DNA of 64,000 nt. Source: Candidatus Scalindua arabica. Lineage in GTDB: Bacteria > Planctomycetota > Brocadiia > Brocadiales > Scalinduaceae. Each line of letters starts with the position of its first letter. The stretch's first letter is position 1. Where the stretch lies: the NCBI GenBank assembly GCA_018263435.1, contig JAANXD010000076.1, forward strand, positions 20,123 to 84,122, given 5' to 3'. Both the position numbers and the translations under genes were made by a program. Below the pieces are notes generated by a model, which was not told where the DNA came from, made no database searches, and saw only the letters and a list, made by a program, of their open reading frames with translations. Shown in pieces: positions 2,908 through 7,074 of this stretch.

Positions 2908-3273
2908 ATGGAATTTAAACGTATAAAACTATCTCCGGAATCAACTAACAAGCTAAGGACGTTTAAGGCAAGAACTGGTTTGACGCCTAACATATCCTGC
3001 AGGTTAGCCCTGGCTTTATCAATTAATGAACAAAACAAGCTATCATTAGAGCTATATAGTGATGATACTGGTCAGGAAATAAACTGTTATACATTTCTGG
3101 GAGATCAAGAACTGATGCTTCTATCCCTTTATACTCAATGGTGCTATGAGAACAATGTAGCAAAGAAAAACTATTACGAGTATCTGCTTGCCCACATTAA
3201 CCGGGGAGTAGAAATGTTAACAAATCGAGTAAAAGGGCTTGATGGCCTTCTTGAGCTTCTAAAGAATAATTAA
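2908..3273 (+). CDS. dndE: DNA sulfur modification protein DndE
   Basis: Small protein with MEFKRIKLSPESTNKLRTFKARTGLTPNISCRLALALS; position after dndD. Confidence 0.9.
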   Translation: MEFKRIKLSPESTNKLRTFKARTGLTPNISCRLALALSINEQNKLSLELYSDDTGQEINCYTFLGDQELMLLSLYTQWCYENNVAKKNYYEYLLAHINRGVEMLTNRVKGLDGLLELLKNN

Positions 3274-3279
3274 TCTGCC

Positions 3280-3942
3280 ATGGCCAAACCTATATACCTT
3301 GACCATAATGCTACAACTCCTTTAGACAAGAGAGTCCTAGAAAAGATGATCCCATATTTTTCTGAAGTCTATGGGAATGCCTCAAGCATTGACCATCTTC
3401 ATGGTCATCACGCCAAACAAGCTGTCCAAAAAGCACGTGAAGATATTGCGAAGATCCTGGGATGTCGAAAGAATAGTGAAATCATAATTACGAGTGGAGC
3501 CACGGAATCCAACAACCTGGCTTTGATTGGTACATTTCGTAAATATAAAGGAAAAGGTAGACATATTATTTCGTCTGCCATAGAACATCCATGTGTACTT
3601 GACACCCTGGAGTTTCTAAAAGCAGAAGGGGCAGAAGTTACATTGTTACCGGTAGACAAATATGGATTTATCAGTATTAATGATCTAGAGGATTCTATTA
3701 GAGATGATACAATTCTGATTTCAGTAATGTTTGCGAATAATGAGATCGGGATTATAGAACCAATTAAGGAAATCGGGCAAATTGCAAAATCACGAAATAT
3801 ATTATTCCGTACGGATGCCGCTCAAGCAGTCGGCCATGAGAGAGAAATGAGAACAGGCACACTAAACATTCCTGCAACTGTAGGTTTTGGCAAGTCTGCG
3901 GAAGTAACAAGAAAACAAATGGAAACTCAAAATATAAATTAA
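3280..3942 (+). pseudogene. dndA: Cysteine desulfurase (DndA/IscS-like), internally deleted and C-terminally truncated
   Basis: Typical N-terminus MAKPIYLDHNATTPLDKRV...SGATESNN...DAAQAVGH, then jumps to EREMRTGTLNIPATVGFGK and stops; PLP-lysine segment and catalytic-Cys loop are missing. Confidence 0.8.
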
Positions 3943-4910
3943 GTATTTAATAAAACATTTTTACGGTGCCACTTTAAATTTTCTCTATCAGGCCAATATT
4001 GTTGATCCATTAGTAACATCATTCTTTTACCTTTATATTTAATAATGCCATAATCACTCTCTGAATTTTCTGTAAAACAATTAGAAACGATAACCTTGTA
4101 TTCAGCATCAATGCTTATCAATCCTCGATCAAAAGCTCTATGTAGATTAGGGCATAATGAAATCCCATTTTTGATTGTATCGTCATGAGAAACACTAAAA
4201 GGAACAATGTGGCAGGCATCAATCATTGATATGTTTGCTAAAGCAGAGATGTTCAACTCTGAAATACAACACGTATAACTATAAATTCGAGGAACAACTT
4301 TTTTAAAAATATCACTTCTAATAAATATGTCTTCATCATCTAGATTTTCAAATTCCTGTTTATATCGTATAGCAGATTCTTTAAGAATTTTATTTTCTAT
4401 AGATTCGATATATCTCTTATAACCCTTTCCATAATTACTTATGAAATTAATTTTTGTTTCCGGGAAATAAGTATTTAATATTACAAATCTTAAAATATTT
4501 CTAGAATCTTCATTAGCTAGCAATTCAAACAAATCTTCATTAATTTCTGCATAATCGACTACTTGATTCAAATTTTTAAACCCTCTCATAGCGGAAGATA
4601 TATTAAGAGCATTTTCGAAGCCGACTTTTGGTTTTAGAGTCCAAAACTTATCACTTCTTAGATGATAGAATGGGAGAGCAAAACTAATATTATGGTTTGT
4701 TTTAACTAATAAGCTCCAATTTTTCTTAAAACTGGCTACAATTTCTGATGTAATGAAGACTTTATTTGAAAAAATATTTTTGTTTTCGATATTTTCAATA
4801 ATTGTCAAGAGCAAAATAGGTTTATGAGGGGCAATACCAAGTGATCTATCTACTCTTAAATTCTGAAATCTTTTAATAAACGTTTGTAGATTGTGATCCA
4901 ATGTATTCAC
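3939..4910 (-). CDS. HNH endonuclease (COG3440-like putative restriction endonuclease)
   Basis: C-terminal HNH: DACHIVPFSVSHDDTIKNGISLCPNLHRAFDRGLI; N-terminal APHKPILLL domain. Confidence 0.75.
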   Translation of the reverse strand: MNTLDHNLQTFIKRFQNLRVDRSLGIAPHKPILLLTIIENIENKNIFSNKVFITSEIVASFKKNWSLLVKTNHNISFALPFYHLRSDKFWTLKPKVGFENALNISSAMRGFKNLNQVVDYAEINEDLFELLANEDSRNILRFVILNTYFPETKINFISNYGKGYKRYIESIENKILKESAIRYKQEFENLDDEDIFIRSDIFKKVVPRIYSYTCCISELNISALANISMIDACHIVPFSVSHDDTIKNGISLCPNLHRAFDRGLISIDAEYKVIVSNCFTENSESDYGIIKYKGKRMMLLMDQQYWPDRENLKWHRKNVLLNT

Positions 4911-5055
4911 GAAACCAGGTTTACTATATTAACTGTTGTTGATACTGTAAAAACAAAGTGATGGAGCCGTTAAAAACTTCAGAATCTCTTCTGAAAATCT
5001 GGCGAATCAGTATCACAAGCCTCGTAAGAAAAGTCATACAGGCCATAATTTTTAT

Positions 5056-5376
5056 TTAATCCCAACATTTCCCTTTTTCAGGAATCACATACCTTATTCC
5101 ACCTCTTGGATCTGGAACATCATTGTGATAACGAGGAATTACATGAAAATGAAGTTGTTCTATGGTTTGTCCAGCAGCCTCTCCATCATTAATTCCGATA
5201 TTAAATCCATCAGGTTTTGATTCAAGGGTTTTTTCTAGATATTGAACTGTCCAATCAATCAACTCAATCAAATCAAATTTCTCTTGCTTTGTTAATTCAG
5301 AGAATCTGGTAACTGGACGTTTTGCAATGATAAGTATATGTCCTGGAGAAACAGGGTATTTGTCATAGACAACCAA
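5056..5376 (-). CDS. HIT family protein (N-terminus uncertain)
   Basis: VVYDKYPVSPGHILIIAKR and GQTIEQLHFHVIPRYHNDVPDPRGGIR; listed start is TTG and the frame upstream reads KKKIKTFGRIEPDQIIKEDDLF with no ATG before the stop. Confidence 0.75.
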   Translation of the reverse strand: MVVYDKYPVSPGHILIIAKRPVTRFSELTKQEKFDLIELIDWTVQYLEKTLESKPDGFNIGINDGEAAGQTIEQLHFHVIPRYHNDVPDPRGGIRYVIPEKGKCWD

Positions 5377-5814
5377 AAAAAGGTCGTCTTCTTTAATAAT
5401 TTGATCCGGTTCTATTCTTCCAAATGTTTTAATTTTCTTCTTATACTCCTTTAATCATCATCAATCAACAATTATTACAGGATTGCAAGGTGTACGGGCG
5501 ACATGCCCACAATTGCAAATGTATGTGAAAAAGCTTACTCGCATAAACAAGTAAAACTATCTTTTTGTAGATATTAAGAATGTGGTAAAAGTGATAGATT
5601 TAACCACGAAAGACACGAAAAATCACGAAAAAAACAGAAAAGGCGGGTTTCACACAAAGCCGCTAAGATCGCAGAGAAAGATTAAAAGTATGGGTAAAAA
5701 ACGAAAGGCAAAAGAAGAAAAGAGGTATTTAACCTTGATAATATTTTACAGTAGACTTATTCAATAATATATAATATATTTTAATTCGGTTAATTATTAG
5801 AAAGGAGGCTTACA

Positions 5815-6006
5815 ATGCATTCACTCAAATATGTCCATTGGCAAGATAGTGAGTTTTTTTTAGGTCACTTTGTTGATTATCCCGATTATTTAACTCAAGG
5901 CAAATCTTTAGAAGAATTAAAAAAAAATCTCGAAAGTTTGTATAATGATCTGATCAGCAAAGAAATACCTTACATAAAAAAGGTTGATGAACTCAAAATA
6001 GCTTAA
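5815..6006 (+). CDS. HicB-like antitoxin
   Basis: HFVDYPDYLTQGKSLEELKKNLESLYNDL; RBS AAAGGAGG; directly overlaps a HicA ORF. Confidence 0.65.
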   Translation: MHSLKYVHWQDSEFFLGHFVDYPDYLTQGKSLEELKKNLESLYNDLISKEIPYIKKVDELKIA

Positions 6007-6185
6007 TGAAGAGAAAAGACCTAATCAAAACTATTGAAGGTCTTGGTTGTCATTTGGTAAGGCATGGTGGTAAACATGATTGGTATACAAATTCCAAAAC
6101 AAAGACTTCTCAACCAGTGCCCAGGCACAAAGAAATCAATGAAAACTTGGCTAAGCATATAATAAAAAAGCTTAGTAATTCATGA
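6006..6185 (+). CDS. hicA: HicA-like mRNA interferase toxin, 59 aa (not in ORF track)
   Basis: MKRKDLIKTIEGLGCHLVRHGGKHDWYTNSKTKTSQPVPRHKEINENLAKHIIKKLSNS; ATG overlaps the upstream TAA. Confidence 0.8.
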   Translation: MKRKDLIKTIEGLGCHLVRHGGKHDWYTNSKTKTSQPVPRHKEINENLAKHIIKKLSNS

Positions 6186-6640: not shown

Positions 6641-6806
6641 CATTTGGTATTGCCCGTCCGAACGGATTCATCCGGGCGGGTGATTTATTTGGGATTTGCC
6701 ATTTGGGCCCACCCTGGTGCGGTCTGGGCCAGGGACTTGAGATTTATAAAATCTATTTATTGGTGGTTATTATAAAAAAGTGGGGTTGTTTTGCAAGACA
6801 AAAGAC
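6631..6806 (+). repeat. Dispersed intergenic composite repeat, copy 1
   Basis: TTATTTTGATCATTTGGT...GATTTATTTGGGATTTGCCATTTGGG...ATTATAAAAAAGTGGGGTTGTTTTGCAAGACAAAAGA. Confidence 0.7.
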
Positions 6807-7074
6807 ATTGGACACGAATTTCACAGATTGACACTAAAAGAGAAAAACGAAGGAGAGTTATGAAGTGCTTAAGATATTTCTGTTTTTTTTGTTAACTATC
6901 CAAACGGTCGGGGGCTATAATACCTGAAAGTTTCAAGTGGAAAGTGCCTGAAGTTAAAAATTAAACACCTTTATAATTTGCTATCATTTGTTACATAAAC
7001 ATGACCAACCTCTCTTTCAAGAGGATTCCAATTCTGATATTTTTTCAGGTAATTTTATTTAAAGGAAGCATCGT

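Follow-up and report, generated by a model that had tools for sequence, protein, structure and literature searches.

One of the known systems closest to the locus described here is DndCDEA-PbeABCD of Haloterrigena jeotgali; in this archaeal Pbe system, loss of phosphorothioate (PT) is tolerated (PMC6459918). S. lividans cannot dispense with dndA, and housekeeping desulfurases are no substitute for it (PMC2653506), and in E. coli IscS can stand in for DndA, the gene for which is absent from 19 of 31 clusters (PMC3519819). PT-marked DNA is the target of a group of PT-dependent type IV restriction endonucleases, the SBD-HNH enzymes (ScoMcrA, SprMcrA, EcoWI; NF045808). Characterised members cut PT DNA (PMC6224610, PMC7461809) and stop the entry of dnd+ plasmids in vivo, and coexistence with a matching working dnd system is not expected (PMC7461809). 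PT-DNA nucleases were found beside PT-making genes at a frequency below 3.6% in one survey, which named a mutated dnd cluster as just one possible reason (PMC7461809); another survey counts modification-reading HNH nucleases among the partners of dnd loci (PMC10853773).

We analyzed a 64,000-nucleotide stretch (the window) from the anammox-type bacterium Candidatus Scalindua arabica (contig JAANXD010000076.1, here C77, positions 20123-84122) that begins inside a dnd cluster. The 3' part of dndC lies at positions 1-890 of the forward strand (its start is upstream of the window; full reading frame 461 aa; TIGR03183, E = 1.2e-85; PADLOC DndC, 8e-106), followed on the same strand by intact dndD (887-2902; 671 aa; TIGR03185, 512 bits, over the cut-off) and intact dndE (2908-3273; 121 aa; TIGR03184, over the cut-off; PF08870). 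Together with dndB, directly upstream of the window (L078:18523-19617; TIGR03233, 506 bits), these genes make a complete PT writer core on open frames.

The next gene, dndA (3280-3942), reads ...FRTDAAQAVGH|EREMRTGTLNIPATVGFGKSAEVTRKQMETQNIN-stop in the window DNA and encodes 220 aa, of which mainly residues 1 to ~186 are matched by Pfam Aminotran_5 and NCBIfam desulfurase models. In this N-terminal class-V fold portion, and in its place after dndE, it resembles DndA and the IscS-family cysteine desulfurases (TIGR03235; PDB 3vax, 1p3w); unlike them, it has neither the PLP-lysine segment nor the catalytic cysteine and ends in a foreign tail of 34 residues. Aligned to the intact 385-aa dndA of the same-genus genome G007 (L094:2941-4098), the window gene is missing 49 residues (187-235) in frame at the junction and all sequence past about residue 270. 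The PLP-binding lysine motif (SxHKxxGPKG; SAHK205FYGPKG in G007) falls within the first gap, and the frame ends ~60 residues short of the catalytic cysteine loop (GSAC; GSAC330TT in G007). The first-pass annotation had reported the loss of both segments and had estimated the gap at 45-50 residues, and the alignment agrees on both counts. Judged from its sequence, the gene is a chimeric remnant that cannot act as a desulfurase. Recoding or programmed bypass was ruled out because the PLP-lysine and cysteine residues are absent at the DNA level. A second copy of the lost segment was also rejected: a genome search with the C-terminal 199 aa of the G007 protein found no piece with dndA-like identity, and the best matches were housekeeping desulfurases, 33-40% identical.

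The native 5' part of dndA (codons 1-186; 3280-3837, forward strand) is 88% identical in amino acids and 85% in nucleotides to its G007 counterpart. Its dN/dS of 0.086 in this comparison is like those of dndD (0.10) and dndE (0.09), so dndA evolved as a functional gene through most of the interval after the lineages of the window and G007 diverged. By this measure, the truncation is recent relative to that divergence.

G007 was the only one of 13 genomes of the genus with a close DndD (84% identical) and thus provided our single same-genus comparator locus. Its dnd cluster is 85% identical to that of the window, and its contig C203 (L094) carries, in order, dndC (incomplete at the edge of the contig), dndD, dndE, dndA, a set of convergent effector genes and the remnant of a HIT-family gene. 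The convergent genes match DUF262/Orf5 (HEC-06), a PbeC-like ATPase (2e-96) and PbeA (7e-208), so that PbeA and PbeC homologues lie beside the dnd genes in this Pbe-type module; genes of 133 aa and 789 aa received no assignment. The plan of G007 resembles that of DndCDEA-PbeABCD in that convergent PbeA- and PbeC-like genes come after its dnd genes and dndA, whereas the window has lost the Pbe part and the 3' end of dndA and has an SBD-HNH gene in their place. Beyond a weak generic helicase match, no PbeA homologue was found in the genome of the window. A widespread short dndA architecture was rejected because the G007 gene is intact.

BLASTN collinearity with G007, at 85% identity, stops at position 3836 (the VGH|E junction) and restarts at 5055 inside the HIT-family gene (5056-5376, reverse strand; PF01230), which flanks the dnd island here and, as a remnant, in G007. 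At this right-hand point, identity of 82% resumes over 5055-5219 (C77:25177-25341 against G007:C203:13301-13462). The interval between the two points measures 9.8 kb in G007, where it holds the rest of dndA and the Pbe-type module, and 1.2 kb in the window, where it holds 34 codons of another desulfurase and the SBD-HNH gene. Farther along, the window contains dispersed repeats of ~80-120 bp (5517-5636 and 6732-6851; ~90% identical, with many copies in the genome of the window and in others of the genus) and a small HicB/HicA toxin-antitoxin-like gene pair (5815-6185), assigned from sequence, the DNA of which is 86% identical in genome G003.

The junction itself reads GGCCATGA (3832-3839, forward strand), and the corresponding G007 sites, GGTCAC and GGTCATGA, share the microhomology GGYCA. 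The tail beyond it (3838-3942, forward strand), which stops before the catalytic cysteine, has 55.9% nucleotide identity to the matching G007 stretch as against 85% just upstream (binomial P ~1e-12); its 34 codons are thus not the native continuation of dndA and come from a different cysteine desulfurase. A single deletion within the gene, by recombination between VGH and a downstream GGGHE-type segment, had been proposed in the first-pass annotation. We reject a simple in-gene deletion because the tail is foreign, and read the junction instead as the left-hand boundary of a replaced segment.

Within the order, the best match to the tail was a desulfurase of genome G030 (53% identity, E = 3e-9; next best 8e-7), which is convergent with G030's own SBD-HNH gene 4 kb away. 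The G030 desulfurase (L142:15316-16218) is also truncated, at about residue 290 and before the cysteine loop, and has an IS-type transposase nearby. A common origin of tail and nuclease is not supported by the SBD-HNH tree, which pairs the window gene with a Methylococcaceae sequence and not with G030. This closest sequence on the tree (L014:370-2014) adjoins a HIT-family gene, too.

The SBD-HNH gene (3939-4910, reverse strand; 323 aa; NF045808, HNH_2, PDB 8h0l) is convergent with dndA, and the stop codons of the two genes overlap. Its GC content is 28%, compared with 36-39% in the dnd genes. It scores against NF045808 with E = 1.6e-31 and 109.5 bits, under the curated cut-off of 180 bits, and is accordingly classed as a relative of that family with the same domain architecture and not as a member of the NCBI model. 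The SBD fold was recovered by profile (PDB 8h0l, E = 1.4e-22) and by an AlphaFold model (TM 0.89 of target against 8h0l), with further matches to 7ccd and 5zmo. Residues H29, K30 and P80, invariant in our alignment, align with the sulfur-pocket residues H116, R117 and P165 of ScoMcrA (PMC6224610), and the HNH motif (H234, N248, H257 region; HNH_2, 44 bits) is likewise invariant, its residues being kept across 60 relatives. The enzyme is thus predicted to bind PT DNA through the SBD and to cut it through the HNH domain. With ScoMcrA, SprMcrA and EcoWI it shares the SBD with the H/K/P pocket and the C-terminal HNH domain; it differs from them in sitting inside a dnd locus, in falling under the NF045808 cut-off and in that its PT activity is predicted, and from ScoMcrA also in having no SRA domain. 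No close SBD-HNH was found in a phage collection, and viral contigs yielded weak dndA relatives only. The first-pass annotation had missed this neighbor, and the presence of an adjacent nuclease predicted to recognize PT changes the meaning of the loss of dndA.

We favor, with modest confidence, the reading that an exchange of effector modules broke dndA, brought in a PT-attacking nuclease and probably left PT writing off. The locus would have started as dndBCDE-dndA with a Pbe-type module, much as in G007, and would have passed from intact to broken. The comparison shows a short segment, with a scrap of another desulfurase and the SBD-HNH gene, at the place where G007 has the Pbe module and the 3' part of dndA; an illegitimate join at the common GGYCA motif would have made this exchange. 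Such an event would have shifted the locus from writing PT and defending PT-marked self to a nuclease directed against PT-marked DNA. With dndA lost, the writer would have no sulfur donor of its own. PT writing has most probably ceased or fallen to a low level, and the nuclease would for that reason be tolerated. Because PT loss is tolerated in the archaeal Pbe system, the loss of dndA need not have been lethal. Set against this reading, dndBCDE are open and conserved, with no visible decay of the writer core.

An alternative that we consider unlikely, though the strongest of those weighed, is that a housekeeping desulfurase feeds DndBCDE, that dndA is debris, and that the SBD-HNH enzyme reads another PT motif or is silent. 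The most likely donor would be C56, the one canonical group-I desulfurase of the genome, which keeps both the PLP lysine (GHKLHAPKG) and the cysteine (SSGSACTTG). A SufS-type gene (C16) is also present. The many dnd clusters without dndA, the service of IscS to such clusters in E. coli (PMC3519819) and the intact dndBCDE of the window all agree with a live writer, as does a Chlorohelix plasmid (L216:13556-14900) with complete dndBCDE, a second dndB copy and an SBD-HNH relative (29%) but without a neighboring dndA. This relative is convergent with dndBCDE, with overlapping stop codons, it cuts pbeC to 112 aa, and its pocket histidine is replaced by tyrosine (APYK). The plasmid parallels the window and shows that a writer core and an SBD-HNH relative can sit together. 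IscS-DndBCDE-DndI (PMC11662687) is also alike in having dndBCDE without a desulfurase of its own and a single-gene effector, but DndI spares PT-marked DNA, whereas SBD-HNH enzymes attack it. Against a borrowed donor stand the failure of housekeeping desulfurases to replace DndA in S. lividans (PMC2653506), the retention of a dedicated dndA by this lineage until recently, and the state of two other NifS/IscS-like genes, C47 (L081:3324-4496) and C76 (L082:2386-3591). Both keep the catalytic cysteine and have lost the PLP lysine, the HK of the motif being replaced by NQ in C47 (SNQFYGPPG) and by HT in C76 (SHTFYGPKG). PT writing is probably off; less probably, it would depend on a housekeeping desulfurase and use a different motif. 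The first-pass annotation had posed the choice as a borrowed desulfurase or decay: a working system would indeed need to borrow, while decay is only partly right, given intact dndBCDE and the dN/dS of 0.086.

We also evaluated the surroundings of SBD-HNH genes in other genomes. A genome scan with a few peptide patterns, which for that reason sampled only the clade of the window nuclease, returned 62 relatives. Nine of these adjoin dndC, making 11 genomes with two more Brocadiales loci (L142, L144); L024, one of the nine, is the same locus as L143. None of the 11 genomes had a full-length DndD anywhere, and since several are isolates, this absence is not only a matter of binning loss. Damage took several forms: dndC was cut in L022, L023 and L024 and had an internal stop in L043, half of dndD was present in L052, L053 and L142, dndD was missing from L016, L045 and L067, and both dndC and the HNH gene were broken in L144. 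As a control, a DndC query in 301 genomes of one family found 10 loci; full DndD (677-721 aa) occurred in all eight without SBD-HNH and in neither of the two with it (Fisher P 0.02 for this family and 1.3e-5 pooled, both uncorrected for shared ancestry). Mapped onto the SBD-HNH tree, linkage to dnd takes seven changes, at least four of them forced by well-supported branches. SBD-HNH genes of this clade that adjoin dndC thus tend, by gene content, to sit in loci with an incomplete PT writer, a pattern that agrees with the reading favored for the window. More tentatively, the clade may repeatedly invade dnd loci in several phyla, each time disabling the writer at dndA, dndC or dndD, so that a reader replaces the writer and a PT-writing locus becomes a PT-attacking one. 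We observed that truncated dndC or dndD frames directly 5' of SBD-HNH end in -[LI]AA and a stop in L022 (3900-3918; MELAA), L024 (7960-7977; NQLAA), L053 (1700-1715; LIAA) and L142 (10210-10230; DQLAA), with the DNA GCWGCWTAR. These ends resemble that of the ssrA/ClpXP degron and may reflect a shared cassette end or chance.

Plain neutral decay, with a chance loss of dndA beside an unrelated nuclease, has in its favor that defense islands turn over rapidly and that a single comparator cannot show selection. We nevertheless find it improbable, since one replaced segment holds both the nuclease and the dndA break and the clade of the nuclease recurs in broken dnd loci, at the ancestry-uncorrected probabilities given above. 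An assembly or binning chimera of the dndA genes of two strains is very improbable: the genome is a draft (2.69 Mb, 102 contigs) and two homologous genes meet at a short common word, but that stretch is a few bases, far below an assembler word, and both flanks keep the order and orientation of G007 with the HIT gene on the far side, which argues against a random join.

A broken dndA taken alone is ordinary turnover. That the break shares a segment with a nuclease predicted to seek PT, and that similar loci recur, makes the case moderately more interesting. It bears on the question of how PT-attacking nucleases can adjoin PT-making genes: a fresh writer lesion in the nuclease's own replaced segment, together with the tally of loci, makes the broken-writer answer directly testable. 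It is also a warning that an annotated dndBCDE does not mean that there are phosphorothioates in the genome.
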